64,000 bases of DNA from Tridacna crocea. Its lineage: Eukaryota; Mollusca; Bivalvia; Cardiida; Cardiidae. The stretch spans positions 43,548,173-43,612,172 of the forward strand of contig OX031070.1 of assembly GCA_943736015.1 (NCBI GenBank), in the 5' to 3' direction. This document shows positions 256 to 63,600 of the stretch, piece by piece (within the stretch, counting starts at the first letter, position 1; each line of letters begins with the position of its first letter). Below the pieces are notes generated by a model. It did no database searches, was not told the origin of the DNA, and saw only the letters and a program-made list of their open reading frames with translations. The translations under genes and the position numbers were made by a program.

Positions 256-461
256 TTAACCCATTACCACACAATCCCTACTTTTGACGCCCCTGAGAAA
301 GAAGCCTTTTGAAAACACTGTATGAAAAGGAGAAAATGCTGGTAACCAGCATTTTCTCCTTCCCAGAACAAATTTTAATTTTTCAGTCACCTTTATTTTG
401 TCGTCTGCAAATGCTTTCAATTTGTACCAGTCTAAAATTTTGTCGTTTGGTAAAGAGATAA
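256..461 (+). repeat. P1 MITE, right arm shortened
   Basis: It starts TTAACCCATTACCACACAAT. The core left arm is present, but the right arm jumps from TCTCCTT to CCCAGAAC, losing about 20 bp. The end TTAA has decayed to GATAAA. Confidence 0.85.
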
Positions 462-567
462 ACCCTGTGTTGTGAGTACCCATTAGAGTCGTCTCATCAA
501 GACATAGGGTTTTAGAGGGAAATGATGACTTTAGAAGACTGTCACACTCTTATCTGGAGCTCTGATA
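462..567. repeat. P4 element, truncated
   Basis: It holds TGAGTACCCATTAGAGTCGT and the TATCTGGAGCTCTG end; one half of the palindrome is missing. Confidence 0.6.
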
Positions 568-1196
568 ACATGTCTCTTCTCATAGAGCAAGAATCATTTC
601 ACCAAAGTAGTATGCCCACATTTCACCATGTTTTATCAGCTAAGTGAGATATTAAGTGACTGAAGTGAAAAGAAAAAAATTCATGGCCAGACAATTAAAG
701 ATGCAAAGTTTTATAAGTATGAGCTTTTACAACGCGAAAAAAAGGTTCAGAGCTTGTCTAAATTGGAAGTTTTTGCAGGCAGTATGTCCCGCTAGATGGC
801 ATTCTACAAATACGTGTACACATCTATCAAATTTGGGCACCCTGGGTACAGAACCAGTCTATAGTTGCCTAATGAGCAATAGCAGATATAATTTTCTTCA
901 AGCTTTTTCTATGCGACAACCGTCACATTGAATTTCAACCTAAAATAAACGTTTTCTCAGTAAAACACTGATCAGCAGTTCAGAGAAACCTAGAGCTAAA
1001 ACAGGCCTGATTTTTCCTCAAATGTATTGATAAAAGCCATTTTCTCAAATCTTTGAAGAATATGACATGCGCAGACATTGCTTTTGTTGGTGATAAAAGA
1101 AAAGTGACTTATTAAATGAGGGAAGGGTAAAGAAAACATTATGGGAAAGGAGAGAAGGCTTGTAACTGGAACTTAGTTGATTGACTAATGGATGGA
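568..1196. other. No gene recognised
   Basis: AT-rich sequence. A faint P1-like trace (GAAAACATTATGGGAAAGGAG) is at 1133-1158. Short open frames lack any recognisable domain. Confidence 0.5.
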
Positions 1197-1505
1197 AGAG
1201 TGGATCTTAGCACTCAGTCAGTCGGTCAGTCAGTCGTGTAAGTCAATTGGTCTGTTGTTCAGTTAGACGGAGATTCAGTCAAGTCAGTCTGTTCAGTCCA
1301 GACGGTCAGTCAATCAATCAATCAATCAGTCAATCAGTTAGTCAATCAATCAATCAATTTGTATTTATCTATTATATTTTTTTATTAATCAATTAAACTA
1401 AGAATGAATGAATGAATGAATGAATGAATGAATGAATTGACTGACTGATTGACTGGCTGATTGATTGATTGATTGATTTACTAATTGGTTTAATGATTGA
1501 TTGTA
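1197..1505. repeat. Inverted tetranucleotide microsatellite
   Basis: The left arm is (TCAG)n then (TCAA)n; the middle is AT-rich; the right arm has (GAAT)n, then CTGACTGATTGACTGG and (GATT)n. The right arm is largely the reverse complement of the left, so the tract can fold back on itself. Confidence 0.85.
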
Positions 1506-1841
1506 ACTTATCAGCTTGCCAATTTCTTCGATTTTTTTCTGTCTGAACCTAAATGGCTTTTTTCCCCCTCTTCATAAAAATGGAAAGAAAACAAAAAAAA
1601 AATAAGAGGGCGTTGGGCTTTAAGTGTAACAACAGCCAATGTCATCTCGGCAGACCTAGGATACCGTTAGTCGAACTATGCTGTACGCCATGTCACTATT
1701 TACTCGAGTCAATTCAGGTCGAAGTTGTTAAAGAAACTGCGAGTGACACGACAAATCTTCTTATCACCAAGACGAATCATTGGTTATTTTTATCATATTG
1801 TATGTTATCTTTATATTTATTTCATATATCATATATAGACT
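1506..1841. other. VMP1 upstream flank
   Basis: Presumed 5'UTR or promoter zone because it precedes the first coding exon. It is AT-rich, with TATATATAG-like sequence at 1826-1838 just before the ATG. No CpG-rich core or clear initiator could be picked by eye. Confidence 0.35.
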
Positions 1842-1949
1842 ATGACATCTCGTATGACAGAGGATGATTACAAAAAGCTTACCGCCTCTCAGCTTAGATC
1901 TCAGCTTAAAAAACGAAAGCTCGGGACGAACGGCAAAAAAGATGAGTTG
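1842..1949 (+). CDS. VMP1: VMP1 exon 1 (SAP-like N-terminus)
   Basis: Thirty-six codons starting [20 protein letters not shown] and ending GKKDEL at donor TTG|GTAAGC, phase 0. It supplies most of a SAP motif that is completed by VSRLLE in exon 2. Reading through the donor would give a 72-aa peptide ending at 2060, which looks like intron translation. Confidence 0.8.
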
Positions 1950-4900: not shown

Positions 4901-7900
4901 CTTTAGTAATTTTGTTTCCCTTGTTGGTTAAAAAGGGTTTGACTGTTGACCAAAAGGTTTCAGATTTACAACCGCCTGTACAGCGATCAATAAAGTATTT
5001 ATTCAGTGATCTTCTTCTAAGACTAGTGACTAAGTTTCTTTGTCTACGAAAGTTTTCCCAAGTTTTAGGAGTTTTATTTCTTTTATATTTGTTGAATAGC
5101 ATTCTTTTTTTGTATATTTCATATTTTAGTGCTTTATTCATAAAAGGAGCTGGCTGTTTTACTAATTTTCTTTGTTTAAGGGGGGCATGTTTATTGACTG
5201 TTTCAGTCAATATGGTAAGCATATCATACTCGTGACCAGGTGGTTGTGAGTTTGATACAAGGATGAGCCAAACCTTCCGGAGATTTTTAAATCTTCACCT
5301 CTGATGCATGTTAGAAAAGTGGTCACAGTGATTTGGAAAGAAACTTGCATCAGTGCTGGTGTGAGAAAGCCAGGAAACACATACATAGGTTCACTGACCA
5401 CATTGATATGACCAAAGCTCTTAACCCTTTCCCAAAAAACCCCTGGTTTTTACAGGTCAGGAATAGAAGCCTTTTGAAAACATCGTGGGAAAAGGAGAAA
5501 ATGCTGGTAACCAGCATTTTCTCCTTTTCTAACAATTTTTTTCTACCCTACCATATAGAAAAATTATCAGCAGAGATAATTTTCTTCAAGCTTTCTGCAA
5601 TTGATATTGGCTGTTATTGGTGTGTAGATCAAGGTCAGACTGCACAAAATATTCAGTCTGATCTTTGATCTTGATTGAAAGATATTTTAGGGGACATTTA
5701 TTACTATAAATATGGTATTGATGTTGCATAACTCGGTTCTTTTGATCAAGCACAAGTAAATGATAGATTGATTAGTTACATTTATTACTAACACAGTTTT
5801 GATGTTGAATCATTTATTTTTTTTTTTTATCAAATATAGTTCACAGTAATTGATTATCCCTTTGCTAAACAGTACTATATTTTTACATTTTTACAATCGT
5901 CTGGAGGAAGGGTTTGTGTTTGAAGAAACTGTGGGAGATAGTAAAAATATTTTCAATAATCAACTTCATCTGTTGTTATAATTAATAATTCTTTCAAAAG
6001 CGTTTTGTTTCAAGATACATATCCTATGATTGAAAGCATTACTCTTTCTTTAACCCAATACCACACAATCCCTACTTTTGACGACCCTGAGAAAGAAGCC
6101 TTTGGAAAACATTATGGGAAAAGGAGAAAATGCTGGTAACCAGCATTTTCTTCTTCTCCCACAATGTTTTCTACCCTTCACGAAGTAAATTTCAAATTTT
6201 CAGTCTCTTTTGTCATATCGACTGCAAATGCTTTTGATTTGGACAAGGTCAAAATATTGTTGTTTGGTAATGAGTTAAATCCTTCAAGATTGAAAGTATC
6301 TATAGGCAACAAATCCAACCTACAAAGATTGGAAATTATGTAGCTCGATAGAAAAGAATGTTGGAAAAGGACCAAACGCTGGCCTCAGTAATTTCTCCAT
6401 TTTCCACAGTGTTTTTTAAATCTTTCTCAGGACCATTTACACTGGGGATTGTTAAGTAAGGGGTTGACTGTCTAAGCACCAAAGGCTTTTCTTTTAAATG
6501 GATTGGGATAAAACTGTGTAAATGCACAGTCTGATCTTGGATCTACCTTCTCTAGTGCTTTATGGATCTGCACTCTCATTTGCTTTGCAGTGCCATAATG
6601 GAATACTTTCCTTTATGCATGGCTTTGCCTAACACAGTACATGTACATGTAAAAATTCAAGTTATAAGTTGAAGAGAAGTGAGGGCAAAATGAGAGAGAG
6701 ATGGTAGGAGGGGGGGGGGGGAAAGAGAGAGATGGAGGGAAAGAGAGGGAGATTTCTTTGAATTGAAAAAGAATCTACATGTATATTGCAAAAAGGTTAA
6801 CTTTAATTTTTCCCAAACAACAGAATTTGGATGGGACTAAATTGAAAAAGCTTCTGTAAATGATGCTGTCTATCTGATAGGGTAGAAAACAGTGTGTGAA
6901 AAGAAGATTCTGGTAACCTGCATTTTCCCATTTACCACAATGTTTTCAAATGCATAATTCTCTTTCAGGGTAGATAAAAGTCAATCGTGTGGTTCAGAGT
7001 TAATAATATTAATACACATTACTGTTTAATTTTATGTTTCTTTTGTTTTTTATATTAATATTGTTCTTAATCTTTCTCTTCAATATAAAATTATGTTGTT
7101 TTTTTTTCTTTACAGCTTATTGTAAGTTTCAGTTTTAGCATCTGCCCTTAGTCCACACAATCCCTACTTTTGACGACCCTGAGAAAGAAGTCTTTAGAAG
7201 ACATTGCGGGAAAAGGAGAAAACGCTGGTTACCGCAGTGTTTTCTACCTTCACAAAACAAATTTCAAATTTTCAGTCACTTTTATTTTGCTATCTGCAAA
7301 TGCTTTCTATTTGGACAAACCTAAAATTTTGTCATTTGGTAATGAGTTAAGGATGTATCTTAGAGGTCTAATGTTTTTACCAGACTTTCCTGTGTTACAA
7401 CAACCCCTAAGGAAAAAGGTTTTCATAACATCATGGAAAAAAAAGAAAATGTTGTTACTAACCAGGATGCTGTTACCTGTTTAAGAATGAATTTCACCAT
7501 TTGGGGCTTGTTTGTCAACTACAAATGATATATATTCTGCCTAATAAGTCTCGGATTTTGTTTTGCTGTAACGAGCTAACTTGACCCATTAACACACAAT
7601 CCCGACTTTTGACGACCCTGAGAAAGAAACCTTTAGAAAACATTGTGGGAGAAGGAGAAAATGCTGGTTACCAGCCATTTCTCCTTTTCCCACAATGTTT
7701 TCTACCCTTTACAAAACAAATTTCAAATTTTAAGTCACTCTTATTTTGTCGTCTGCAAATGCTTTTGATTTGGACAAGTCAAAGATTTTGCCGTTGGGTA
7801 ATGAGTTAAGTTAAAGTCCCAGTAGAGACAGCCAAGCGCTCAGTCGGTAGTGTACAAAACTTAGATAACATGGGGTCATGGCTTGGCCACTTTCTTTTTG

Positions 7901-10900
7901 AGGGTTCATGCTAGTCACAGTGACAGGATTCATTCCTTTCTCACCGCAGATCATTGTTTCCAAGATGGTCTGACATGTAGGAAAGCACATGGAAACAATA
8001 TTGTGCAGAGACTGAGAGTACTGGTAAAAGAAACTCCAGGAAAGCATGGATAGGTGCACTAACCACCATGATATAACTGAAGAAATGTTGAAAATGGTGT
8101 TACCAACCAACCAACCAACCAACTAACCAACCAAAAATACAAAAAAAAATCTGTTATTGTGGTCCATCTGTTTGTAGCTGACAGAAAAAAATGAATTTCA
8201 AAATTGGTCAAAAAGTAAAAAAGAGAGTAACCTGGTAACTTTTAACCCAGTACTGATATTAATTTCTCAGCCATTTCTGTAACACTGACAGACTGTTTGA
8301 ACAATAACAGATTGTCATCTTCACAAAAACCTCCATACATTTAACCCATTACCAAACAACAATATTTTAGGCTTGTCCAAATCGAAAGCATTAATTTCGC
8401 AGACAACGTAATAAAAGTGACTGAAAATTTGAAATTTGTTTTGTGAAGGGTAGAAAACTTTGTGGGAAAAGGAGAAAATGCTGGTAACCAGCATTTTCTC
8501 TTTTTCCCACAATGTTTTCTAAAGGCTTCTTTCTCAGGGTCGTCAAAAGTAGGGATTGTGTGGTAATGGGTTAACCCTGTACCGATATTAATTTCTCGGC
8601 CATTTCTGTAACACCGAAAGACTGTTTGAACAATAACAGATTGTCATGATCTTCACAAAAACCTCCATACATTTTAACCCTTTACTCCATAGATACTCAT
8701 TTATTTGCATTGCTTGTAGGAGTCTTTGGAAAACATTGTGGCAAAAGGTGAAATTGCTTGTGACGAGCAATTTCAACTTTTGTCACAATGTTTTCTATGC
8801 TATCCAAAGGTATCATATACACATAAGAAACTGCTTGATCCTTGCTGTTATTTAGGGTCATTTAGAGATACCACAGAAATGCCTTATGGGGTAAAGGGTT
8901 AAGTGGTTTGATTCAAATTTAAATGCATTTTAACACCAGTTTTGTTTACATGTTGACAGCTGTTGTTACTTTTACCCTTTACCATACAATCCAGACTCCT
9001 AACAATCCTGACCAAGAAAGCTGTTGAAAACATTTTGGGAGATGGAGAAAATACTGATAAATGGCATTTTCTCCTTTTTCCACAATATTCTCTACCAAAC
9101 CGAAAAGAAACTTCAAATGTTTTTGATTTGTACAATATGAAAATCTGTTGTTTGGTAAAGAGAGAATGAGTTTGAATAAACATGTACAAAAAAAGTAATC
9201 CATGAATTATTTTATAGGTAAGCCGTTTGCTAGAATCTGATAAAAAGAAGAAAGATATGAAAAAATCTGTCGTACCGAAACCTGAAACTCCTAGAAAACG
9301 TTCAGTTCAAGCATCCAATCAGTCTTCAGAGAAGAAAAATGTGAATGGTGGTCTTTCCAAGAAAAAACAAGAAGAAAAGAAAGAAATGGAAAGACGAGAA
9401 CGAGAAAAGATTGTACTGTGGCGCTCACCCTTGACTACACTGCAGTACTTTACATTGGAGGCTGGTGTTCTTTTATACTTGCTAGGATTAAAGTAAGCCA
9501 AATTATTTTTTTGATATTTTTGCTCTTACTTTTGATTGCTGATAGCTATTTACTAGATGATAAGATTCTAGACTTAACTCTTTACCAAACAACAAAATTA
9601 TAGACTGGTCCAAATTGATAGCATTTGCAAAACAAGAAAGAAACGTGTATGAACAATTGAAATTTGGTTTGGGAAGGGTAGAAAACATTGTGGGAAAAGG
9701 AGAAAATGCTGGTTACCAGCATTTTCTCCTTTTCCCTCAATGTTTTCAAAAGGCTTTTCTTTCAGGGTCGTGAAAGTTGGGATTGTGTGCTAAAGAGTTA
9801 AATTAAAAGCATTTGAACAGGGCTCTAACAAAAGGGGTTTCATGCACCTCTGTCTTCCATTACACTAAGTAAGCTTTCACATAATTATAGATCCCAAATA
9901 ACCAATAATTGTTTTAATGGCCAGCTAAATAATGAAGTAGACTGGCCCTTGGACATACAGAAAATTGACCAATAACAAAAAGAGTTGGTCCAGGTAAGCC
10001 TAAGCGGACTGCGCAGACTGCCTGGGTCGATACGTTTTACAGATGCAGTAAGCCCCCTTTTGACAGAGCATGGCTCATTTGTAAATTGAAATAGAATATG
10101 GTTTACATGGTAACTAGCATTTCTTCCTGTCCCACAATGTTTTCTGTCCTATCAAAGATCAATTCCTTGATTTGAGCCACATTTCAAACGAGCTATACTC
10201 TCTGAAAAGGGGGCTTAATGCCACAGAGAAACGTATAGACTCATATCGGCCTTTGTGTTTTATTTAACTTTATTGTCCACGTTTAAACGGTACATGAGGG
10301 TTGTGGCCATCCCTCAATGCACCTTACAGTTCAGTATTAGAAATCTGTGTTAGTAAGTGAAAACATTAAACAAAAATTAAACACCTATTATCGTTCTTGT
10401 GTATTGATATGTTTACAAAGATATAAAGATTTTAATACTAGTATTTGACTAAAATAAAGGTTTACATGTTCTTAATTTGTATTTTTCTCTTTAATATGTG
10501 GACAAAAAAAAAACATTTTCATATATAATTGTGAAAAAAAAAAATATTGTGTGAGAGTTGTGAGTGTGCAAGTGACTGTGTTGATAAAGTGCTACTTTTT
10601 ATCTTGGTTCAAAGAACAGTGCTGAAGCTTGAAAAGCTAAAGGGAAGTGTAACATAAAGTAAGTATTCCTTTGTGGCTTCAGCACTGTATCATTGTTCCT
10701 GTGCGTGGAAAGTTTTTATCTGTATTTCATTTGCAGCAGGACAGTACATGTTATTTCAACTTCAAGTAAAAAGAAATATAGCCATGTTCTGTGAAAAGTG
10801 GGGGGGGGGGGGTTTAACCCTTTACCACACAATCCCTACTTTTGACGCCCCTTACAAAGAAGCCTTTTGAAAACACTGTGGGAAAAGGAGAAAATGCTGG

Positions 10901-13900
10901 TAACCAGCATTTTCTCCTTTTCCCACAGTGTTTTCTACCCTTTCTAGAACAAATTTTAATTTTTCAGTCACCTTTATTTTGTCGTCTGCAAATGCTTTCA
11001 ATTTGGACCAGTCTAAATTTTTCTCGTGTGGTAATGGGTTAACCCTTTACCAAATGACAAAATTTTAGACTGGTCCAAATTGAAAGCATTTGAAGAAGAC
11101 AAAATAAATGTGAATCAAAAATTAAAATTTGATTCGGAAAGCATAGAAAACATTGTGGGAAAAGGAGAAAATGCTGGTAACCAGCATTTTCTCCTTTTCC
11201 CACGTTTTCAAAAGCTTTCCTTCTTAGGGTAGTTAAAAGTCGGGATTGTGTGGTAAAGAGTTGATGCAGTTAGATTAACTTACAACCCAGGCAATCCTGT
11301 TCAGGCTGACTTGCATTGAAACCATTTTCATACTGATTTAGCTTTGTGCTTGCCTAAGGACCAGTCAACCATAAGATTCGGCTGGATGGTAGCCGAAATA
11401 GATTTCATTGGTTCAAAAATATGTGATGACTGATGACTTACTCGGTAAAATGCATCATGGAGCCAGAGTGGTGATCGAAGTTTGGTTGATTGAACAAATT
11501 ACATGACATACTATTATTTCTTTCAGATTGTATGCCAGAAAGAAAACAGTCCTTATATGTTTGCTGGTAACATTACTGTTGGTCATGTTGTATTATACTG
11601 ATGGATCACATCAAGTGGTGAGCTTTCTCCTAATTTCAGTTACAAGTATCGTTAAGGTCTACAGACACTAACTCTCATAATTATTAACTCATTACCAAAC
11701 GACAAAATTTGAGGTTTGTCCAAACTGAAAACAATTGCAGATGACAGAAAATTTTCAGTCACTTTTATTTTCTCGTCTACAATGCTTTCAATTTGGACCA
11801 GTCTACAATTTTGTTGTTTGGTAAAGAGTTAATTGGCAGTATTACACATCACTAGACTGGTATTCTGGTCGACCTTGGAAAAACACACTCAGTGATGTTG
11901 ACAGGGGTACCAGTCAAGCTCCCACATGACCCAGCATCCATGTGAAACATACCTCTGTGTAACCTAAATTTGCGCTGTAGGATATTTGTGCGATTTTTAT
12001 CAATATGCAAAAATCGCTGAGATTTTCACCATGGAAATAGCATTATCAGCACCTACCTTTGTAAAAAGTTAACCCTTTCACAGCTGAATTAATAAATTGC
12101 ATTCTCTCAAAGGCTAGGAATACATTTCCTCGACATGATGAAGAGAGATTTTATTCTAAAATATAGCAGTGGACTGTGTAGACAGTCTGATCTTGATCTG
12201 CACAGTCCAGAAAAGCTTTTGGGTCTGAATTCACCAACCACTCTTAAGACCATTGTTTGTCTTGTTCTTCAAGATATTCAAACTGTGAAAGTAACAGAAC
12301 TTCTGATTGGCTAAACCATTTTGGTTTAGCCAATCAGAAGTTCTGTTACTTTCACATTGACAAAATTCTGAAGAATAAGACTAAGAATGCTCTTAAGAAT
12401 GGTTGGTCAATACAGATCCTGGTGTTGTCCATGGTAGGGAAAGAGGTAAAATAACTACAGTATAAGGACCAGTATACATGTAGTTTGCCAAGTCATTATC
12501 AGTTCTCTTCTCTCTATCTTTACAGGCAGTTGAGTGGCTGAGAAAATACTTTCTGTGGAGTGCATACTGGGTCGGTCTGGGTATTTTATCTTCGGTAGGC
12601 CTTGGGACAGGTCTCCATACATTTCTGCTGTATCTTGTAAGTGCATTTATCAACAACAGCCCATCACTCTTAAAGTCAGTCCTTTGATTCTTGCACCAGG
12701 TCACTTATGAAAAGGCAGGGCTAAGAAACACAGTCGGCATTGCACAAGGTTAAACAAATTGACTGTGCAATGGTTGTAAAACAAGTTATACATTTTTATC
12801 AGTTGCTTCCCAAAACTTTTAACCAGTGCTTGCGTCATGCCATGGTCAGTTCCAAAGGTTGGCCTCACATATGGCAGGATTCAAACCCACAACTTTAGTG
12901 TCTTGGGCTTTAACTCTTTACCACATAATCCGGACTTTTAGTGACCCTGAGAAAGAAGCCTTCTAAAAACATTGTTGGAAAAGGAGAAACTGCTGGTAAC
13001 GAGCATTTTCTCCTTTTCCCACAATGTTTTCTACCCTTCCCAAACCAAATTTAAATTTTTTAGTCACATATATTTTGTCGTCTGCAAATGCTTTCAGTTT
13101 GGAACAGTCTATAATTTTGTTGTTTGGTAAAGAGTTAACCCTTTACCCGGAAGGCATTTCTAAGGTACCTCTAATTGACCCTAAATAACAACAAGGATGA
13201 AGCCATTTCTTGTGTGTATATGACACCTTTTGATAGCATAGAAAACATTATGACAAAAGGTGAAATTGCTCGTCACGAGCAATTTCACCTTTTGCCACAA
13301 TGTTTTCAAAATGCTCCTACAAGCAATGTGTAGAAATAAGTGTCTATGAAGTAAAGGGTTAAGCCCATGAGGTTACTGATTCCATTTGCAGTAAAACTAA
13401 ATTGTTTCAGGGGATTGATGATTGTTGGGATATATTCCGCGCTCGGCCCTAAACACGTAGAATATTTTTTATGTCTCAAAGCTGCCGGTTGTTTGCATGC
13501 AAAGAATATTATGAGAACTATTGGTAAAAGAAATTCCAGAAAGTTGCTGCAATGGAATTGGAATAATTTTTAAGAGGGTGCTAAATATGCTGAAAAATTT
13601 TTCAGGGTTAATTGATGTGAGAAATTAAATACTGTAGTTTTAGACAAAACAAATTCCGTGCATGGCTATCTGTTCACCGAAGAATCTCGGAATTTTGACA
13701 ACCCTGAAACAAATAATTTTTATGTAACAGCTCTGACAAGTAACCTCCCTGGGCAAGGATTGAATCCATGACCTCTAGAACTTACGGCAAATGCTCTACC
13801 AAGTTTCTACAAAGGCTCCCTAAATATATGGACGCCTTGTCTGCACATGCTATTCAGTGGAGTCCAAAATTTTGTTGTTTGGTAAAGAATTAGGATAAAT

Positions 13901-21818: not shown

Positions 21819-21871
21819 AGGGGAGAGAATTTATGTTTGAAGGGTAATATCTCTGCAGATCTTCACGAGCC

Positions 21872-39927: not shown

Positions 39928-39939
39928 ATGAACAAGATG

Positions 39940-43115: not shown

Positions 43116-43344
43116 TTAACCCTTTCCCAAACGGCAAATTTTGGACCAGACCAAATTGAAAGCATTTTGCAGATGACAAATTAACAGTTGCTAAAAAGAT
43201 TATTTTTCTATATGATAGGGTAGAAAACATTGTGGGAAAAGGAGAAAATGCTGGTTACCAGCATTTTCTCCTTTTCCCACAATGTTTTCAAAAGGCTTCT
43301 ATTCCTGACCCGTAAAAACCAGTGATTGTTTGGCAAAGGGTTAA
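43116..43344 (+). repeat. P1b MITE, full
   Basis: TTAA at both ends, perfect core; best P1b reference copy. Confidence 0.95.
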
Positions 43345-44080: not shown

Positions 44081-44316
44081 TTAACTCTTTACCAAACAAC
44101 AAAATTTTTAAAATTTTAGACTGGTCCAAATTGAAAACATTTGCAGACGATAAAATAAATGTGACTCAAAAATTGAAATTTGATTTGGGAAGGGAAGAAA
44201 ACATTGTGGGAAAAGGAGAAAATGCTGGTTACCAGCATTTTCTCCTTTTCCTACAATGTTTTCAAAAGCTTTCTTTTTCAGGGTCGTTAAAATTCAGGAT
44301 AGTGTGGTAGAGTTAA
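44081..44316 (-). repeat. P1 MITE, full
   Basis: TTAA at both ends; 9-bp internal duplication of AAAATTTT near the left end. Right TTAA shared with the next copy. Confidence 0.93.
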
Positions 44317-44541
44317 CCCATTACCACACAATCCCTACTTTTGACGCCCCTGAGAAAGAAGCCTTTTGAAAACACTACGGAAAAAGGAGAAAATGCTGGT
44401 AACCAGCATTTTCTCCTTTTCCCACAGTGTTTTCTACCCTTCCCAGAACAAATTTCTATTTGTTAGTCACCTTTATTTTGTCGTCTGCAAATGCTTTCAA
44501 TTTGGACCAGTCTAAAATTCTCTTGTGTGGTAAAGAGTTAA
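44313..44541 (+). repeat. P1 MITE, abutting previous
   Basis: Opposite orientation to the 44081 copy; TTAA at both ends. Confidence 0.93.
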
Positions 44542-44785: not shown

Positions 44786-45057
44786 ACTATTTACCTAATG
44801 ACAATATTTTCAATTGGTCCAAATTGAAAGCATTTGCAGTTGACAAATTAAACATGACTGAAAAAGTTGAAATTTCTTTTGGGAAGGGAAGAAAACATTG
44901 TGGGAAAAGGAGAAAATGCTGTTGAAATTTCTTTTGGGAAGGGAAGAAAACATTGTGGGAAAAGGAGAAAATGCTGGTTACCAGCATTTTCTCCTTTTCC
45001 CACAATGCTTTCAAAAAGCTTCTTTCTAAAAGTTGGGATTGTGTCCTACAGAGTTAA
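44783..45057 (-). repeat. P1 MITE with internal 55-bp duplication
   Basis: GAAATTTCTTTTGGGAAGGG through AAAATGCTG occurs twice; the first copy breaks at the palindrome centre. TTAA at both ends. Confidence 0.93.
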
Positions 45058-45280
45058 CCCTTTGCCCCATTAGGCATTTCTAAGGTATCTCTAATTGACC
45101 CTAAATAACAGCAAGGATGAAGCTGTTTTTTATGTGTATAGGACCCTTTTTGATAGCATAGAAAACATTGTGGCAAAAGGTGAAATTGCTCGTCACGAGC
45201 AATTTCACCTTTTGCCACATGTTTTCAAAGGCTCCTACAAGCAATGCGTAGAAATGAGTATCTATGGAGTAAAGAGTTAA
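45054..45280 (-). repeat. P2 MITE, abutting P1
   Basis: Starts in the TTAA that ends the previous P1. Confidence 0.93.
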
Positions 45281-46354: not shown

Positions 46355-46584
46355 TTAACTTATTACCAAACAACAAAATTTTAGGCTTGTCCAAATCGAA
46401 AGCATTTGCAGACGACAAAATAAGAAGGAATGAAAACTTGAAATTTCTTTTGTGAAGGGTAGAAAACATTGTGGGAAAAGGAGAAAATGCTGGTTACTAG
46501 CATTTTTTTCCTTTTCCCACAATGTTTTCTAACGGCTTCTTTCTCAGGATTGTCAAAAGAAAGGATTGTGTGTTAATGGGTTAA
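46355..46584 (-). repeat. P1 MITE, full
   Basis: TTAA at both ends. Confidence 0.93.
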
Positions 46585-46844: not shown

Positions 46845-47073
46845 TTAACCCTTTACCCCATAGATACTCATTTCTATGCATTGCTTGTAGGAGCCTGTAG
46901 AAAACATTGTGGCAAAAGGTGAAATTGCTCGTGACGAGCAATTTCACCTTTTGTCACAATGTTTTCTATGCTACCAAAAGGTGTCATATACACATAAGAA
47001 ACGGCTTCGTCCTTGCTGTTATATAGGGTCAATTTGAGATGCCTTAGAAATGCCTTATGGAGTAAAGGGTTAA
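46845..47073 (+). repeat. P2 MITE, full
   Basis: TTAA at both ends, core nearly perfect; good P2 reference. Confidence 0.95.
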
Positions 47074-51600: not shown

Positions 51601-53949
51601 AGCATTTTCTCCTTTTTCCACAATGTCTTCTACTCTTTTCAAATCAAATTTCAATGTTTGATCCACATTTATTTTGTTGTCTGTAAATGCTTTCAATTTG
51701 GACTAGCCAAAAATTTTGTAGTTTGGTAATGAGTTAAAGGACAATTTCTATTTGTCATCTGCAAATACTTTAAATTTAGACAGGTGCAAAATTTTGCCAA
51801 ATGGAAGAGTTAACCCATTACCACACAATCCCTACTTTTGACTCCCCTGAGAAAGAAGCTTTTAGAAAATACTGTGGGAAAAGTAGAAAATGCTGGTAAC
51901 CAGCATTTTCGTCTTTTCCCACAATGTTTTCTACCCTTCACAAACAAATTTAAAATTTTTAGTCACTTTTATTTTGTCGTCTGCAAATGCTTTCAATTTG
52001 GACCAGTCTAAAACATTGTTGTTTGGTAATGGGTTAACAAATGCAAAGGAAATGTTACCTGTTGAGAAAGCAATCATCAGATATGTAAAATAGTTGATAT
52101 GATGCACCAGGTTATAGACCAGCTCTGGATACAAAACCAAACTGAAAAATAAACGCATAAACATGTACAGTCTAAGTCTTTACTCTTTACCATACAACCT
52201 TGGGTTTAAAAATCCCCAAAGAAGAAAGCTTAATTATGAAAAAATCATGGGAAAGGAAGAAAATACTGGTAACCAGCATTTTATCCCTTTCCCACAATGT
52301 TTTCTTTTTTTTTTTAGGTCGAAGACATTAATTATCTTAGAGCTATATTTTATTTGTTGTATGTGAATGCTTCATTTGGTAAAGTCGAAAAAACTTTGTC
52401 TTTTGGTAAAGAAATTTAAAGGAGTACAGTGTAATTCCATTTGATTGTCATACCAAAAAAGAAAATTATAGAACAAGGAAGACCTCTATAAAGTATTGTC
52501 CATTAGGAGATCTTAAAAGATAAGCATAGAAATATTTCTTAATACATTTGATCTACCTTGGCTTGAATGTTTACTCAAACATTTCGCAAAAGCCTCTGAG
52601 AACGTCAAATGATGATCAGTAACTGTATTTCATATGTGGGGTCACCTTCAAATAGTGTTGGCAGTGCTTGGCACTTCCTCTCAGGCAGTCATATTTATAC
52701 CCTGTATAAGCTCCTTCATTAAAACGATATACTCTGCGGCTTAAATGGTTTTAAATGTGGGAAAGTAAAAGTGGCTTGGGTAGAATATGGTGTGAAGTAT
52801 TTGCTAAAGAATCTTAAAGAAAGCATGGATACTAAGGTGCACTTATCATGGTGATATAACTGATATAATTTTGAAGACAGCGTTGAACACCACGCAACCA
52901 AATGAAATGTTGCAATCATTTAACCCTTTACTTCATAGATACTCATTTCTACACATTGCTTGTAGGAGCCTTTGGAAAACATTGTAGCAAAGGTGAGATT
53001 GCTTTCGACAAGCAATTTCACCTTTTATCACAATGTTTTCTATGCTATCAAAAGGTGTCATCTGATATACTCATAAGAAACGGCTTCATCCTTGCTGTTA
53101 TTTAGGGTCAGTTAGAGTTGGAATACACATTAAGTATTAACCCTTTTGAAAACAAACTCTGGTTCTTATGACCCTGAGATAAAAGCCTTTAGAAAACATT
53201 GTGGGTAAAGGAGAAAATGCTGGTAACCAGCATTTCGTCCTTTTCCCACGATGTTTTCTACCCTGCTGGAAACAAATTTAAACTGTTAACTTTGTCATCT
53301 GCAAGTGCCTTCAAATACAACCAGTCTAAAGTTTTGTCGTTTGGTAAAGGGTTAACTACATGCATTGCAATAATCAGAAAAGCTTTGTGATTGATAAGGG
53401 TACAATAAGGTGACTAAGGTCACAGCCCTTTCAATATTACGTGGAGACGTGCTGTGACAACAAATTTTCGAAGATATAAGCGACTTTCAAAATAATTTTT
53501 CAGGAATGCGCCTCAACAGATAATAAGAAAGTTAATTGCCACAAATTTACATATCTCCCAAAGTTGATCGCAATGTTTCTCGTCAAAGCTTACCACAGAA
53601 TATCCCATGTACCACAAATAAACCCATGAATCCACGATATCAACAGATTATTCCATCTCCATGCTTCGGAGTGAACGCTCCTGGGTTTGCCGATAGCTGT
53701 TACGATAACATTCAACAATCCAAAGAAAAATATGCTCGCAAAGAACATATAATATCCATGCTTTTGCTCTACTTTATTCTCGGGATCAAACACAAATTCG
53801 GTGTCGGACATTGTCGAAGAAGAGTTGTTTTCAATCATTAGGACGATCTCTTCCGGGCAAGACTCCCATTGAAGAGTGACGTCACGTTGTGTAAAGAAAT
53901 GTCGCTTACAGCATAACAAAAGAGGTAAACAAAAACACATGGTTGCCAT
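48197..53949 (-). CDS. TLC domain protein, TLCD1/TLCD2-like, 4 exons
   Basis: Exons (minus strand): 53838-53594 (or from 53949), 52141-52059, 51277-51195, 48628-48197. With the inner start the CDS is 843 nt (280 aa); with the outer ATG it is 317 aa. The protein follows human TLCD1 (247 aa): AWRWNNLLISWIHGFICGTW (human TWRWHNLLVSFAHS...), FSTGYFLYDFLDLL (FSAGYFIHDTVDIV), ISWEVTLHHIA (ASWEYLVHHVM), then an Asn/Glu-containing helix and a polar C-tail. The HH pair is the conserved TLC histidine motif. TLCD1/2 are multi-pass plasma-membrane proteins that limit incorporation of polyunsaturated chains into phospholipids. Whether this is the TLCD1 or TLCD2 orthologue cannot be decided by eye. Confidence 0.88.
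48659..48887 (-). repeat. P1 MITE, first of a tandem trio
   Basis: TTAA at both ends; lies in TLCD intron 3, 31 bp upstream of the exon 4 acceptor. Confidence 0.92.
48884..49118 (-). repeat. P1 MITE, second of trio
   Basis: Shares TTAA on both sides; 15-bp poly-T insertion; right end P1b-like. Confidence 0.92.
49115..49281 (-). repeat. P1 MITE, third of trio, internally deleted
   Basis: The core stops 2 nt past its centre (CTGGTTAC) and joins AAACTTTTGTCGTTTGGG. Confidence 0.88.
49282..49663. other. TLCD intron 3 sequence, no feature seen
   Basis: AT-rich intronic DNA without a recognisable repeat. Confidence 0.4.
49664..49892 (+). repeat. P2 MITE, left arm of inverted pair
   Basis: TTAA at both ends; core loop GCTAGTGACGAGC. 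Confidence 0.94.
49901..50130 (-). repeat. P2 MITE, right arm of inverted pair
   Basis: Opposite orientation to the previous copy, 8 bp away; TTAA at both ends. Confidence 0.94.
50250..50454. repeat. R6 hairpin element
   Basis: CCTTTGGCTGGTAAGTG end, GATCAAGATCAGATTGCAC / GTGCACTCTGATCTTGGATC hairpin, TTAGCAGAACAAGGGTTAA end. Confidence 0.82.
50451..50678 (-). repeat. P1 MITE, abutting R6
   Basis: Starts in the TTAA that ends the R6 element. Confidence 0.93.
50868..51150. repeat. R8 repeat, fullest copy
   Basis: Ends CATGCTCTGGCAAAAAGGGAC and GACCCCTTTTTCCAGAACATG are inverted. The interior has GCCACATAATTATGGACCC and an AGATCAGCCTGCACAG hairpin. Confidence 0.75.
51195..51277 (-). CDS. TLCD-like exon 3 (HH motif)
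   Basis: Acceptor TTTTCAG, donor GCC|GTAAGT. It encodes YFLYDFLDLLVRGKILISWE then VTLHHIA, carrying the TLC-domain His-His pair. It is too short to stand out as an open frame and is found by alignment to the TLCD1 pattern. Confidence 0.88.
51470..51737. repeat. P1 palindrome with two like ends
   Basis: Perfect core GTGGAAAAAGG / CCTTTTTCCAC. Both flanks are right-type (GACAGAATTGAAAACATTTG left, GTAAATGCTTTCAATTTGGA right), so the whole element is one long palindrome. Confidence 0.85.
51738..51812 (+). repeat. P1 end fragment
   Basis: TGTCATCTGCAAATACTTTAA to GGAAGAGTTAA. Confidence 0.75.
51810..52037 (+). repeat. P1 MITE, full, beside TLCD exon 2
   Basis: TTAA at both ends; 22 bp from the exon 2 donor on the gene strand. 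Confidence 0.93.
52059..52141 (-). CDS. TLCD-like exon 2
   Basis: Acceptor TTTTTCAG, donor ACAG|GTAACA. It encodes LVLYPELVYNLVHHINYFTY then LMIAFSTG. The split codons on both sides restore WDILC and STGYF. A P1 copy ends 22 bp past the donor and another lies 37 bp before the acceptor. Confidence 0.87.
52178..52420 (+). repeat. P1 MITE, diverged
   Basis: Core left arm CATGGGAAAGGAAG; poly-T run; right end TTTGGTAAAGAAATTTAA. Confidence 0.75.
52620..52910 (+). repeat. S2 SINE, diverged
   Basis: GTGGGGTCACCTTC, GAAAGCATGGATACTAAGGTG and TGGTGATATAACTGATATAA landmarks; tail CACCACGCAACCAAA. Confidence 0.55.
52920..53122 (+). repeat. P2 MITE, right end lost
   Basis: Core GCAAAGGTGAGATTGCTTTCG is diverged. 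Confidence 0.85.
53137..53355 (+). repeat. P1 MITE
   Basis: TTAA at both ends; left end TTTTGAAAACAAACTCTGG unusual. Confidence 0.87.
53594..53838 (-). CDS. TLCD-like exon 1
   Basis: Donor TGTG|GTAAGC. Three in-frame ATGs are possible: 53949, 53838 and 53811. The 53838 start gives MIENNSSSTMSDTEFVFDPE, then a membrane helix (MFFASIFFFGLLNVIVTAI) and the conserved WRWNNLL. The 53949 start adds a Cys-rich hydrophobic stretch unlike TLCD1. Confidence 0.83.
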
Positions 53950-54818: not shown

Positions 54819-55267
54819 TTAACCCATTACCACACAATCCCAACTTTTGATGACCCTGAGAAAGAAGCCTTTAGAAAACATTGTGGGAAAAGGAGAAAAT
54901 GCTGGTAATCAGCATTTTCTCCTTTTCCCACAATGTTTTCTACTCTTCACAAAACAAATTTAACCCTTTACCCCATAAAGCATTTCTATGGTATCTCTTA
55001 TTTACCCTAAATAACAACAAGGATGAAGCTGTTTCTTATGTGTATATTGCACATTTTGATAGCCTAGAAAACATTGTGGCAAAAGGTGAAATTGCTCATC
55101 ACGAGCAATTTCACCTTTTGCCACAATGTTTTCCAAAGGCTCCTACAAGTAATGTGTAGAAATGAGTATCTATGTAGTAAAGGGTTAAAAATTTCAGTCA
55201 CTCAGTTTGTTGTATGCAAATGCTTTCGATTTGGACAAGCCTAAAGTTTCGTTTGTTAATGAGTTAA
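54819..55267 (+). repeat. P1 MITE carrying a nested P2
   Basis: Outer P1 with TTAA at 54819 and 55264; read across the P2, CAAAACAAATTTAA continues AAATTTCAGTCACTCAG. Confidence 0.94.
54960..55188 (-). repeat. P2 MITE nested in P1
   Basis: TTAA at both ends; core loop GCTCATCACGAGC. Confidence 0.95.
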
Positions 55268-55430: not shown

Positions 55431-55660
55431 TTAACCCTCTACTCTATAGATACTTATTTAGACGTATCAACAAGAGACAGCTTTTGAAAACATTGTGGGA
55501 AAAGGAGCAATTGCTCGTAACGAGCAATTTCTCCTTTTCCCACTATGTTTTACACTCAATCAGATATTTGTATCCTCATTTGTCCATATTTTTAACATCA
55601 TATCTTTATTTGCTGCTGAAATGTAAGAGCCTCAAATTGGCATATGAGGTAAAGGGTTAA
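55431..55660 (+). repeat. P2/P3 chimeric MITE
   Basis: The left end (TACTCTATAGATACTTATT) is P2-type; the core GGAGCAATTGCTCGTAACGAGC is P3-type; the right end is private. Confidence 0.85.
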
Positions 55661-56107: not shown

Positions 56108-56517
56108 ATCACTTTACCAAACAATGCCACATTGTAACTACCACTACAAAGAAGCCTTTTAACCCTTTACCCCATAAGGCATTTTTAAGGTATCTCTAAC
56201 TGACCCTAAATAACAGCAAGGATGAAGCCGTTTCCTATGTGTATATGACACCTTTTGATAACATAGAAAACATTGTGGCAAAAGGTGCAATTGCTCGTGA
56301 CGAGCAATTTCACCTTTTGCCACAATGTTTTCCAAAGTCTCCTACAAGCAATGTGTAGAAATGAGTATCTATGGAGTAAAGAATTAAAAATACTGCATTA
56401 TAAAAACATTGTAAGAAAAGGGGAAATGCAGGCAGCCTGGCAACCAGCATTTTCTCTACTAGCGTTTTCTTCTCTTTTCACAATGTTTTTCTTCCTTCCT
56501 AAAACAACTTCAACCAT
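56108..56517 (+). repeat. P1 remnant carrying a nested P2
   Basis: CTTTACCAAACAATGCC and AAGAAGCCTT left; after the insert AAAACATTGTAAGAAAAGG and a disrupted core (GCAGGCAGCCTGGCAACCAGC). Confidence 0.78.
56159..56387 (-). repeat. P2 MITE nested in P1
   Basis: TTAA at both ends; one arm mismatch (GGTGCAATTG). Confidence 0.95.
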
Positions 56518-57751: not shown

Positions 57752-57978
57752 TTAACACATTACCAACAACAATATTTTAGGCTTGTCCAATTTGAAAGCA
57801 TTTTGCAGACAACAAAATAAAAGTGACTGAAAATTTGAAATTTGTTTTGTGAAGGGTAGAAAACATTGTGAGAAAAGGAGAAAATGCTGGTTACCAGCAT
57901 TTTCTCCTTTTCCCACAATGTTTTTAAAGGCATTTTTCTCATGGTCATCCAAAGTAGGGATTGTGTGGCAATGAGTTA
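57752..57978 (-). repeat. P1 MITE, full
   Basis: TTAA at both ends. Confidence 0.93.
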
Positions 57979-58086
57979 AGGAGCTTTAACAAGATTTCAT
58001 GTTGCAAGAAGTTTTGTAGAAAATCTTCATGAAGACAAGACTTTTTGTTCACATACACAGATGGCTTTAAATTCATAAAATGAGAG

Positions 58087-58290: not shown

Positions 58291-58291
58291 C

Positions 58292-58520
58292 TTAACTTTT
58301 TACCAAACAACAAAATTTTAGACTGGTCCAAACTGAAAGCTCTTGCAGATGACAAATTAAACGTAAATCAAAAATTGAAATTGGTTTCCAGCAGGGTAGA
58401 AAACATTGTGGGAAAGGGAGAAAATGCTGGTTACCAGCATTTTCTCCTTTTCCCACAATGTTTTCAAAAGGCTTCTATCCCAGGGTCGTAAAAACCAGGG
58501 ATTGTTTGGGAAAGGGTTAA
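58292..58520 (-). repeat. P1 MITE with P1b right end
   Basis: TTAA at both ends; left P1-type, right GGGATTGTTTGGGAAAGGG. Confidence 0.92.
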
Positions 58521-58832: not shown

Positions 58833-59044
58833 TTAACCCTTAGGCTGGTAAGTTCGACTCACTAACCTTTTGCAGACAGTGTAGATCAAGATCAGACTGC
58901 ACAGAACATGCAGTCTGATCTTGGATCTACACTGTCCATTAAGGAGATGTTATTACCCAAAACACAACTTTGAAATAGTAATATTTTGGCTTTCACTATC
59001 AAATTGAAAACCTCATTTTGGTTATTTAGCAGGATAAAAATTAA
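58833..59044. repeat. R6 element, full
   Basis: Ends TTAACCCTTAGGCTGGTAAG and TTTAGCAGGATAAAAATTAA; hairpin GATCAGACTGCACAG / CATGCAGTCTGATC. Confidence 0.88.
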
Positions 59045-59266
59045 CCCTTTCCCAAACGACAAATTTTTGGACTAGACCAAATTGAAAGCATTTGCAGACG
59101 ACAATTCAACTCTTGCTGAAAAGATTATTTCTGTCTGATAGGGTATAAAACATTGTGGAAAAAGGAGAAAATGCTGGTTACCAGCATTTTCTCCTTTTCC
59201 CACAATGTTTTCGAAAGGCTACTATTCCAGACCCGTAAAAACCAGGGATTGTTTGGGAAAGGGTTA
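59041..59266 (+). repeat. P1b MITE, abutting R6
   Basis: Starts in the TTAA that ends R6; TTAA at the right. Confidence 0.94.
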
Positions 59267-59320
59267 AGTTGTATCTCTGTAATATGGAATGCTGATAAAA
59301 GTGTGAAATACAGGCTAAAC

Positions 59321-60200: not shown

Positions 60201-60204
60201 AACT

Positions 60205-60440
60205 GTCCTAGAAACAAACTACAGCTGTCACTGAATGTGTCTATATGCCCCCGCCAGTGCTTTGACAGTATTTTGTCACAGGACACACAGACGGACAAAA
60301 GGAACATTTCTGCCAAGTTTGGTCCAAATTGGCCAAAAGGTTTAGGAGGAGATGATGTAAAAGAATTGTTGGTGATGGGCGATGGACAATGGGTGATCCT
60401 CAAAACTCCCCTTGAGCATGTTGTGCTCAGATGACCTAAA
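60205..60440 (+). repeat. R9-like 3' end
   Basis: ACACACAGACGGACAAAAGG, TTGAGCATGTTGTGCTCAGA, GACCTAAAAAAAAAC; a common type of bivalve repeat tail. Confidence 0.6.
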
Positions 60441-60511
60441 AAAAAACACATATGAACACATTACTGACAAAAGCTCCAGTCAAAATCTCTTGGTTCAGTT
60501 TTGTCTTTCTT

Positions 60512-60616
60512 TTACTGTTCTTTTTTATCCTGTGCACTTTCCTTCCGTGGTTTAGGCAACTTTTTCTTGCACTGGTTGTAAGTTTCATTCATCTCAAAGT
60601 CACGTTTAATATTTTC
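60512..60616 (-). CDS. TMX2: TMX2 last exon (stop)
   Basis: Acceptor TTTCGCAG. It encodes ENIKRDFEMNETYNQCKKKL and PKPRKESAQDKKEQ, then TAA at 60514-60512. It matches the human [20 protein letters not shown] position. Confidence 0.92.
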   Translation of the reverse strand, partial: ENIKRDFEMNETYNQCKKKLPKPRKESAQDKKEQ

Positions 60617-63600
60617 CTGCGAAAAAAAAGAAACAAAATATCAAATAAACAACAGATTACAAGATTATATGGCTTACAACATGCAGAAGCGACATTCATA
60701 CATTTGCATGAAGTGTCGTCTCAGATCAGCCTGTGGGGACTCCTAGACGGCACTTTACAACTACATTAGATTTCGTGCTACAGTAGACTTGGGTGAAACA
60801 GAAAATTACATAAAAATACAAATCATCATTTTGGACCCCTCACCAAACCACAAAATTTTGAACAGGTCAAAACTGAAAACATTTGCAGACAACAAATAGA
60901 GTGTAACTCCCTGGTGGGAGTATAACTTCTTTCAAAGGTGGCTTTGTTTTGAAATGATTTGTATTTTTATAGGAAGTGTTTTTTATGCAAGTGAAATCAT
61001 TTTTTTTTTTTTTTTATTATGAGCTTTTAAAGTTTCCCAGTTTACCTATTTATAATTTATCTTAAGGGAATCCTGCAAAAGAGAACAATATCAGCAAATG
61101 ATATGACATCATTTGCCTCCATCTTGGTAGCATACCATATGACTCGGAAGAAAAACAAAATGGCAGCTAACCTCAATATATCACAGAGCTCCAGATAAGA
61201 GGGAATGATGGTATTCTAAATCCAATATTCCTCTTTCAACCCCTATGTTGTGGGTACTCATAAGAATCCTGTCAATGAGACGATTCTAATGAGTACCCAC
61301 AATATAGGGTTTAGTAGAGAATAATTACTATTTTTAATTTTGAAATCAAAAACACTCCCTCTAGCTGGAGCTCTGTATCACGATTTCAGATGATTCAACG
61401 ATACCTTTGTAAACATGTATTTGACAACTGTTCCTTTTGGACTCATGGCTGGTCGACTTATCACTTCTTTACCTTCTTTGAACAACACAATGGTGGGTAA
61501 CTGCTTGGAGAATGAGGAAGTGTTGATTCTGAATCTGAAATTGATCATGTTTTAACCCTCTACCACATATTTCTAAGTTCAAATGATCCCAAGAAAGTAA
61601 GCTTTTCAAAACATTGTGGGAAAAGGAGAAAATGCTGGTAACCAGCATTTTCTCCTTTTCCCACTATGTTTTCTACCTTTTAATGTGCAGCTTACAGTAT
61701 ATTAGATAAGTAGAGTAAATGCTTTGAATACAGACAAGGCTGAGATCCTTCATTTGGTACAGGATTAAGTGAAACTATTCAATCATATACAATTACATTT
61801 TTTGTGCAGTGTGCTTGGTGTTTAGCTTATTTATCCCTTTACCAAACTAGACTGATTTTGACAACCCTGCTAATATAAAAGAAGGGGTTTGAAAACATTA
61901 TGGTGAAAGGAACCAAATTGTTGTGGGAAAAAGCTTTAGAAAAATAAAATGTGGGAACGGGAGAAAATACTGGACACTAGCATGTTTACAGTGTTTTTAA
62001 GTATTGTCTCCTGTTCCTACAGTATTTTTCACTACATTTGGGACAAATCCCTGTATTAAAGCCAGACTAACTTTTGCATCTACAAATGCTTTCAATTTGA
62101 ACAAACCCAGAATTTTGTGTGTTTGAAAAGATTTAGGAATATGGTTTACTTTATCACAGTTTCGACACCTAAATTTATCTAAACCTTTTGTTTACAATTT
62201 GAAAAGACTTAACTCTTTCCCAAACAAGCCCTGGTTTTTACGTGTCTGCAGTACAAGTCTTTAGAAAACACTGTGGGAAAAGGATAAATTGCTCATAACA
62301 AGCAATTTCTCCTTTTCCCAGTGTTTTCTAGCCTATCTGAAAACTTTCCGCCATTCTAATCAAATTCAAAATTTTCATCTGCAAACACTTAGACTTTGAG
62401 TTTGGAACAGTCATTTGGGAAAGGGTTAAAATTGCTTGTGTTAAAACTTACTCTTCTGCCACATCAGAGTATCTGCTCACATCTAACTTTCCAAACTTGA
62501 AATTATCCAAATGATATCTGGAAAAAAAGACAGTAACATAAATTTGCTGATTACCTCAAATACATGTACTAATCAATGTTTTTTCACCCTTTCAAAGAAC
62601 ATTTTCCCAATTTGTGCAACATTTACATTATCCTTTACAAATGCATCAAATTTAGAGCGGACTATAAATTGCTGTTTGGTAAAGAGTAAAACTACCCTTT
62701 CACAACTTTATTTGCTGTTCATAACAGGTATAGATCAAGATCAGACAGCACAGATAGTATTTTTATATTGCAAAGAAATTTCTCGTGATCTGATTGGTTA
62801 ACATGCCGGGAACATATATCATGTTCCCTGGCAAAAACCACATAAACATCACTACACATGCAACACAACATCCAAAATGGCAGCGTCGATCGATCACCAG
62901 ACTGCACATTTATGAACCAAACTGCACAATTTAGTGACGTCAGTTTCCAGTGATGTCAGTTTTCAATGAATTGGGGCACTCAGAAGGAATTTCTATTTCG
63001 TCAGCATACTCGATTCCTGAAATTATGAAACAGGAAAATTTCGCTTAACACGCTTTGAAACTTGTTAACGACTGTATACTTTGCTAAGACCTTTTTTACA
63101 AACACAACCTTAAACCTTAGGCTGCTAAGCACTACTAAACAACCTTTTGCTGACAGTGTAGATCAAGATCAGACTGCACAGAACATGCAGTCTGATCTTT
63201 GATTTACACTGACTGATAAGGAGATGTTATTCCACAAGAAAATTCAATTTTAGTTCTTTAGCAAGATGAGGGTTAAAAAAGCATTTATTTGGGGTCTTTT
63301 GTCTATAATGAAAATATGAGCTTGGCTTAACTGATAAATTAACTCTTTTTGAAACGACAAATTTTAGACTTGTCAAAATTGAAAGCAACTGCAGTCGGGC
63401 AAAATGAATTTTATACAAATGATTGAATTTCCCTTTGGAAGGATGGAAAACACTGTGAGAAAAGGAGAAAATGCTCATCACCAGCACTTTCAGTTTCTCC
63501 TTTCCTTATAATGTTTTCAAAAGCTGTCTTTCATGAGGTTGTTAAAACTTGGGATTATGTGATAAAGGATTACAAAAATTCTAGAAAGAATTACACATCT

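Follow-up and report, generated by a model that had tools for sequence, protein, structure and literature searches.

The transposases of piggyBac (Trichoplusia ni) and piggyBat (Myotis lucifugus), according to the portions of two reports on which we draw, use dimerised cysteine-rich domains (CRDs) to bind palindromic subterminal sites, and unequal ends matter for piggyBac (PMC7351741, PMC11707139). The coral (Acropora) elements termed CMITEs duplicate TTAA and have CCC-type tips, and the part of their description used here reports several families that differ in their tips but share a better conserved internal region; one of them has the tips of a local piggyBac element, and the origin of the internal region is left unexplained (PMC2872659). 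Similar features are found in a swarm of miniature inverted-repeat transposable elements (MITEs) in a 64,000-bp stretch of the genome of the bivalve Tridacna crocea (contig OX031070.1, positions 43,548,173 to 43,612,172; hereafter the window). These are non-autonomous MITEs of the piggyBac superfamily, non-coding to judge from their length, and they carry a long internal palindrome, or dyad, whose common variants are mirrored on its two arms.

Profile hidden Markov models (HMMs) of three unit types, P1, P2 and P3, built from units that had passed a palindrome filter, detected 133 copies or fragments in the window, covering 24,328 of its 64,000 bp (38.0%). P1 accounted for 108 of these pieces, P3 for 13 and P2 for 12, and 79 pieces covered at least 200 model positions. 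Over all sequence examined the models gave 1826 raw matches, and none in the same sequence reversed. The swarm recognized in the original prediction is therefore real, and it is larger than the approximately 100 copies or fragments and 30% coverage claimed there; the span then given, 256 to 63572, agrees exactly with the start of the first HMM piece and the end of the last. The units have the properties of MITEs, being short, uniform in length (a peak at 229 bp), numerous (360,904 core sites genome-wide) and bounded by terminal inverted repeats, which are imperfect and only about 13 bp long.

The 229-bp peak (both TTAA included) was seen when facing TTAACYC...GRGTTAA ends were counted in 255 kb that included loci selected by the palindrome or by piggyBac; 33 pairs had this length, against a mean of 3.2 per length. 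The palindrome was predicted to be central with arms of about 24 bp; instead, it consists of 33-bp arms around one central base (67 bp) and lies off-centre, at position 141 of 229. The unit lists used for anatomy were drawn from the window and loci L001-L043. Among 51 candidates (225-233 bp, at least 28 of 33 pairs, typed by a rough rule that leaves some P3 among P1), exactly this combination of length 229 and centre 141 was found in 28, and the others were mostly off by 1-2 bases, P2 units tending to length 228 and centre 140. From the dyad centre to the two tips the distances are 84 bp and 136 bp, equal to 8.0 and 12.95 helical turns at 10.5 bp, and this near-whole-turn spacing to both tips is suggestive, though only suggestive, of a defined protein-DNA assembly. 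P1 right ends are mostly CCC or CTC and P1 left ends mostly CTC, and P2 and P3 tips are mostly CCC. Tip type matched core type in 55 of 59 listed units, a list in which the unit at window position 9574 is entered twice and the L035 and L038 units are a single insertion.

Units with a length of exactly 229 bp and the centre at 141 split into two groups, P1 (n = 21) and P3 (n = 7), and the consensus sequences compared were made from these units only. They are 87% identical in the palindrome, 43% in the left part and 53% in the right part, so that the internal region is better conserved between families than the rest of the unit. The four arm positions that distinguish the two consensus sequences differ on both arms, and the P1, P2 and P3 core types are all paired on both arms. 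For homology between the outer arms of P1 and P3, equal offsets gave weak support (shuffle p values of 0.016 and 0.004), other offsets reached as high, and we do not claim such homology.

The variation of the palindrome was examined in copies selected by their outer arms only, the palindrome having no part in the choice. This yielded 131 copies, 61 of which were excluded (59 with a middle not exactly 72 bp long and two duplicate insertions inside copies of the piggyBac family E described below), leaving 70. Paired, two-sided complementary changes numbered 60, compared with 12.2 expected from column shuffling (maximum 22 in 2000 shuffles), and when the partner position was slid by 1-4 bases the number fell to 0-12. 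All ten variants present in at least 7 of the 70 copies were mostly mirrored on both arms; these ten are both sides of five arm positions, located 2, 7, 12, 19 and 25 steps from the centre. Of 76 occurrences of variants present in 2-3 copies, 8 were paired, as were 3 of 52 singletons. A similar picture was obtained from 100 listed genome sites, all on contig C1 between 182 and 740 kb: 50 were perfect over 11 free pairs, and relative to the nearest of the three core types the sites carried 87 one-sided changes and 3 paired ones. The one-sided changes showed no strand bias (45 versus 41).

We then compared variation in the palindrome with that in the rest of the unit, using the small sample of 19 copies in which the arms were complete. 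The per-site rate of singletons was 0.0215 in the palindrome, 0.0269 in the left arm, 0.0336 in the right arm and 0.0253 in the tips, and that of shared variants was 0.0183, 0.1053, 0.0468 and 0.0838, respectively; the shared-variant rate of the palindrome is thus lower by a factor of 2.6-5.8 than those of the arms and tips. Landed copies decay one-sidedly, and their palindrome decays at about the same rate as the rest of the element. Because singleton rates are even and shared variants are rarer in the palindrome, the constraint seems to act mainly on the moving lineage, the dyad being selected during mobilisation and not after landing.

The symmetry could instead be without function if palindromes self-correct in replication, a change in one arm being copied to the other through a hairpin or a template switch, and the family having merely inherited a palindrome that repairs itself. 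Private paired changes do occur, three having been found where 0.66 are expected, which leaves room for a mutational origin of the symmetry, and the copy at window position 36268 has a mirrored two-base change of the kind that template switching would give. Yet 87 of the 90 changes at the listed sites were one-sided, arguing that correction after landing is rare, and self-correction would preserve symmetry but not letters, which does not account for the scarcity of shared variants in the palindrome. We regard self-correction as the main rival explanation, and as an unlikely one. That the palindrome is merely young, or owes its detection to a search directed at it, is scarcely credible: the palindrome did serve as query for the genome counts below, and the HMMs were made from palindrome-filtered units, but the conservation tests took copies chosen by their outer arms, and the similar singleton rates in palindrome and arms indicate much the same age.

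A third alternative is that the palindrome is kept for an RNA hairpin function, in small RNAs, silencing or escape from it. The two units tested folded far better than shuffled sequences (z = -10.4 and -11.9), albeit with DNA parameters, and human mir-548 genes are described, in the part of the report available to us, as derived from a palindromic MITE (PMC1784062). However, such a function would be expected to tolerate G-U pairs on the transcribed strand, which is at odds with the absence of strand bias among one-sided changes, and singleton variation in the palindrome is barely below that in the arms; we consider this alternative quite improbable.

Comparison of filled and empty paralogues revealed the target site. 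Locus L032 reads GGC-TTAA-MITE-TTAA-ACC, against a single TTAA in each of its empty paralogues, L016 and L014, showing that the TTAA target is duplicated upon insertion; a target duplication other than TTAA, which would have spoken against the predicted piggyBac origin, was not seen in this comparison. L032 and a further locus, L034, are piggyBac copies of a family other than E, each with a MITE missing from a sister copy, and since both are approximately 97% identical to L016, their MITE insertions are fairly recent. In three cases a single TTAA is common to two adjoining units. These data also bear on the idea that the units amplified as folded single strands released as hairpins in replication, with the palindrome as the enabling fold. 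A hairpin-replication model has reportedly been put forward for fish MITEs, and the strong computed folds would suit it, but the TTAA duplication, the tips and subterminal motif held in common with a piggyBac element and the TTAA common to adjoining units point to transposase-mediated insertion, and a fixed spacing between tip and palindrome is not predicted by that model. We find it very improbable.

Matches to the piggyBac transposase domain PF13843 (DDE_Tnp_1_7) numbered at least 118 genome-wide (116 of 196 candidates scored), on contigs C1-C18. None of the 118 listed fell in the window, in accordance with the earlier statement that no source transposase is present there. Thirty of the 118 matches were fetched, and ends were determined except at L010/L013, L011, L025, L037 and L039. 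One family, E (L026-L030, L035 and L038), is represented on several chromosomes by nearly identical copies of a 7.2-kb piggyBac element: two copies, on C3 and C9, are 99.7% identical over 7.2 kb, and identity among L026-L030 over 4.1 kb is 99.5-99.98%. TTAA was present on both sides in four of six copies checked; one had GATT on the left and one had a disrupted right end. Its transposase has a 492-aa open exon that matches PF13843 (E = 2.8e-88) and aligns with the solved chains of piggyBat and piggyBac (E = 5.7e-40 and 4.3e-36). The phmmer alignment with piggyBat spans the SVDE, FDNF and GVDLHDQ segments, which we take to hold the catalytic Asp residues, and a Cys-rich tail. MITEs are also nested in copies of E; one separates the long exon from a probable N-terminal exon, and others are situated 3' of the gene.

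The ends of family E resemble those of P1b, an end variant of P1 defined by reading end lists, whose end sequences were typed by hand for the comparison. The left end of E is TTAA|CTCATTACCACTCAG, with a CTC tip, and that of P1b is TTAA|CTCATTACCA; the CTC tip, a departure from CCC, is common to P1 left ends and the E left end. At the right end, E has TTAA|CCCATTACC...CAAT...CTTTTGACGCCCCT, with a CCC tip (TTAA|CCCATTACCGTTCAATAACGCCTTTTGACGCCCCT when read inward), and P1b likewise TTAA|CCCATTACC...CAAT...CTTTTGACGCCCCT. P1b equals E at 28 of the right 36 positions, where the maximum in 20,000 shuffles was 22, and the 14-bp motif CTTTTGACGCCCCT is at the same offset in both. The MITE HMM alone detects the right end of E (model positions 173-229, E = 3.3e-5), and a motif, GGGGCGTCAAAAG, occurs twice within the last 300 bp of E. 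Tip agreement with the MITEs was 12 and 11 of 14 for E; families A-D, with 5-9 of 14, were ruled out as source by their tips. A source element sharing terminal bases, as was proposed for supporting the piggyBac assignment, thus exists for the P1b tip type, and the assignment is borne out by the TTAA duplication, the CCC/CCY tips and a PF13843 source with P1b-matching ends. We conclude with high confidence that family E or close relatives mobilised P1b units; units with other tip types probably owe their movement to related elements.

The genome holds at least four further piggyBac families (L014-L020/L024/L032/L034; L022/L023/L031/L033; L021/L036; and L012), whose tips differ (CCCTTTATATAC, CCCTAGTCATGC, CCCTTTCAGYGC and CCCATTTATGCC). 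Because some of their copies are near-identical, piggyBac appears to have been recently active in this genome.

The abundance of the MITEs was estimated over the genome (1.049 Gb, 31 contigs), with the palindrome as query for the core counts. With up to 2 mismatches, the P1 core had 388,957 forward and 389,524 reverse places (control 0), presumably mostly the same sites because the P1 core is nearly its own reverse complement; the P3 core had 44,529 places (control 0). The 360,904 sites (control 26) were obtained with a pattern fixing only some outer core letters, and such sites numbered 47 for 133 HMM pieces in the window and 28 for 91 in ten 10-kb pieces sampled elsewhere at hand-picked round positions. 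Mean MITE coverage of those ten pieces was 15.8% (range 0-52%, bootstrap 7-26%), so that the window, at 38.0%, is denser in MITEs than the sample mean. Scaling from these few samples, we estimate some 1.0-1.2 million copies and fragments, and similarly a MITE share of about 16-19% of the genome. Three of the ten pieces had no MITE; two of these, L040 and L047, consist to about 45% of tandem repeats, including one with a 166-bp period.

One could envisage the palindrome as a two-fold symmetric cis-acting site used in mobilisation, a role to which, on sequence evidence, we give about an even chance. A dimeric protein, for which a host factor and the transposase's own C-terminal cysteine-rich domains are candidates, would bind the dyad at a fixed distance from the tips and would help this very short DNA to form a synaptic complex. 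Few offspring would descend from units whose dyad was broken or wrongly spaced, and the symmetry would thus be purified in the mobile lineage without upkeep at landed sites. A dyad of this kind, serving as a synapsis site, would account for the paired evolution, the conserved letters, the near-fixed spacing and the decay after landing. A bolder form of the proposal holds that transposition requires the internal 67-bp dyad, a module at fixed spacing that evolves in a compensatory manner like an RNA stem but is read as DNA symmetry, is free to decay once landed, and enabled a 225-bp hitchhiker to multiply to about a million pieces; this we advance tentatively and with some doubt. The reading as a whole, in which these are piggyBac MITEs, P1b was mobilised by E or its relatives and the dyad acts in mobilisation, we consider reasonably probable.

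Several observations weigh against that reading. The symmetry is not absolute, all 13 variants present in 4-6 copies being paired in half or fewer of their copies; the private paired changes are in excess of expectation; and the comparison of rates used few copies. The first and last 400 bp of E contain no comparable dyad, the best palindromes there being 58-65% paired over 16-33 bp, and MITE-type palindromes inside E sit in nested MITEs or fragments. The transposase is therefore not obviously dependent on such a dyad, which may be an added enhancer instead of a requirement. Agreement between the left ends of E and P1b is confined to the terminal 14 bp including TTAA, and the 15 matches in the left 36 bp are not above those in shuffles. 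Among the 30 of 118 piggyBac loci fetched, no source element was found for the P1a, P2 or P3 tips. In the second filled and empty pair, L034 and L016, the empty copy reads TTTA and not TTAA; the downstream flank of L034 had no match in L014.

Near-full-length units of the window are listed in Table 1. Other features were noted in the same sequence. An open 704-aa reverse-transcriptase reading frame at 3180-5294 (-) matches PF00078 (E = 5.6e-33) and resembles that of a long interspersed nuclear element, with short direct and simple repeats nearby. Possible exons of a gene for a TLC-domain membrane protein lie at 48197-48658 (-) and 53590-53988 (-), with many MITEs between them; the former matches PF03798 (E = 1.1e-6), and the latter had no family match. 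A separate repeat with AGCCAGGAAACACAT, which may resemble a short interspersed nuclear element, occurs at least four times (5368, 16855 and 23701 on the forward strand, 38315 on the reverse), and a long low-complexity tract of GTCA, AATC and GAAT units occupies 1190-1500. Rfam and tRNA scans of the window were both empty. Elsewhere in the assembly, C31 is an unusually large mitochondrial contig (29,009 bp) with one COX1 match that apparently uses invertebrate code 5, AGR being read as Ser, ATA as Met and TGA as Trp. Code 5 is used by the mitochondria of many protostomes, including molluscs.

Table 1. The MITE swarm and its near-full-length units (window positions; HMM, model positions covered)
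Position	Strand	Feature	Remarks
256..63572	none	Entire swarm	133 HMM-defined copies/fragments, 38.0% of window; reversed control 0
256..460	-	P1 MITE, near full	HMM 2-229
6050..6278	-	P1 MITE	229 bp, TTAA at both ends
7582..7809	-	P1 MITE	HMM 1-228
8341..8574	+	P1 MITE	TTAA at both ends
8674..8902	-	P3 MITE	229 bp, palindrome centre 141
9574..9801	+	P1 MITE	TTAA at both ends
10814..11042	-	P1 MITE	229 bp, exact palindrome core
11039..11262	+	P1 MITE	Adjoins unit 10814-11042; HMM 1-227
12910..13138	-	P1 MITE	229 bp, TTAA in common with next unit (13135..13362)
13135..13362	+	P3 MITE	TTAA 13135-13138 in common with previous unit
14352..14576	+	P2 MITE	P2 palindrome core
14832..15060	-	P1 MITE	229 bp
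16052..16258	-	P3 MITE	Shortened internally
18286..18513	+	P1 MITE	HMM 2-229
19724..19952	+	P3 MITE	229 bp
21591..21819	-	P1 MITE	229 bp
22332..22550	+	P2 MITE	
22764..22993	-	P1 MITE	230 bp
23030..23259	-	P1 MITE	230 bp
24628..24850	-	P1 MITE	
24911..25125	+	P1 MITE	
26508..26736	-	P1 MITE	HMM 3-229
26739..26934	+	P1 MITE	Shortened internally
27158..27386	-	P1 MITE	HMM 1-228
28573..28798	+	P1 MITE	HMM 1-227
28837..29066	+	P1 MITE	230 bp
33915..34152	-	P1-like MITE	Several private paired palindrome changes
35230..35458	+	P1 MITE	229 bp, TTAA in common with next unit (35455..35682)
35455..35682	+	P1 MITE	TTAA 35455-35458 in common with unit 35230..35458
36268..36495	+	P1 MITE	Mirrored two-base palindrome change
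36564..36790	+	P2 MITE	P2 core
37142..37373	+	P1 MITE	HMM 1-228
37663..37891	+	P1 MITE	229 bp
39699..39928	-	P1 MITE	HMM 1-228
40384..40612	+	P1 MITE	229 bp
41223..41451	-	P3 MITE	HMM 1-228
41655..41883	+	P1 MITE	229 bp
42510..42736	-	P1 MITE	HMM 1-227
43116..43344	+	P2-ended MITE with P1 core	Perfect 33-bp palindrome arms
44313..44541	-	P1 MITE	229 bp
45054..45280	+	P3 MITE	
46355..46584	+	P1 MITE	
46845..47073	-	P3 MITE	229 bp
48884..49118	+	P1 MITE	HMM 1-229
49664..49892	-	P3 MITE	229 bp
49901..50130	+	P3 MITE	230 bp
50451..50678	+	P1 MITE	
51810..52037	-	P1 MITE	
53137..53355	-	P1 MITE	
54960..55188	+	P3 MITE	229 bp
55431..55660	-	P1 MITE by HMM	P3-like ends
56159..56386	+	P3 MITE	HMM 1-228
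57752..57979	+	P1 MITE	
58292..58520	+	P1 MITE	229 bp
59041..59267	+	P2-ended MITE with P1 core	
61552..61768	-	P1 MITE	
62210..62429	-	P2 MITE	
63339..63572	+	P1 MITE	HMM 1-228

These MITEs may put a name to part of the "DNA, Unknown" share (34.9%, 2,578,864 elements) given for Tridacna crocea in the portion of the genome report used here (PMC10858879). The genome offers a recent source element, recent insertions, by our estimate about a million pieces, and a natural mutational record in which the constraint acting on the mobile form can be told apart from the decay that follows landing. It bears on why some MITEs explode in number. Our results suggest that an internal dyad, and not only the tips, can be under selection in transposition, as has been suspected for the internal region of coral CMITEs.

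Among other known systems, Kolobok also targets TTAA, as does T2-MITE; a piggyBac source was found instead for the P1b tips, and a Kolobok origin is conceivable for the P1a, P2 and P3 tips. The hairpin-type MITE Made1, a Tc1/mariner derivative, is likewise a short, palindromic, non-coding unit so far as its partial description goes, but it is nearly all palindrome, whereas the elements described here have a fixed internal palindromic block. The piggyBac and piggyBat systems are alike in TTAA targeting, unequal ends, a DDD core and a C-terminal Cys-rich domain, and their transposases are homologous to that of E. The remark in the original prediction that a long internal palindrome is atypical of piggyBac is upheld. 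In the passages available, the palindromic site of piggyBac is short, a 19-bp repeat at bp 17-33 of the left end, and those of piggyBat are imperfect, the innermost at bp 107-120, in contrast to a single 67-bp dyad whose centre is 84 bp from one tip and 136 bp from the other. A search of the open-licence PMC literature gave no recognised description of this element beyond the coral CMITEs. CMITEs are about 100 bp long with an estimated 1600 copies, compared with 229 bp and an estimated million pieces here, and the part of their description that we used mentions neither a palindrome nor compensatory change, unlike the 67-bp palindrome in a nearly fixed place found in Tridacna crocea (PMC2872659). 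What is new here is the mirroring of common variants, together with evidence on when the constraint acts, which can be assigned to the mobile lineage. The coral CMITE group is the nearest precedent, and the elements described here are far more numerous, palindromic, nearly fixed in the position of the palindrome, and compensating.

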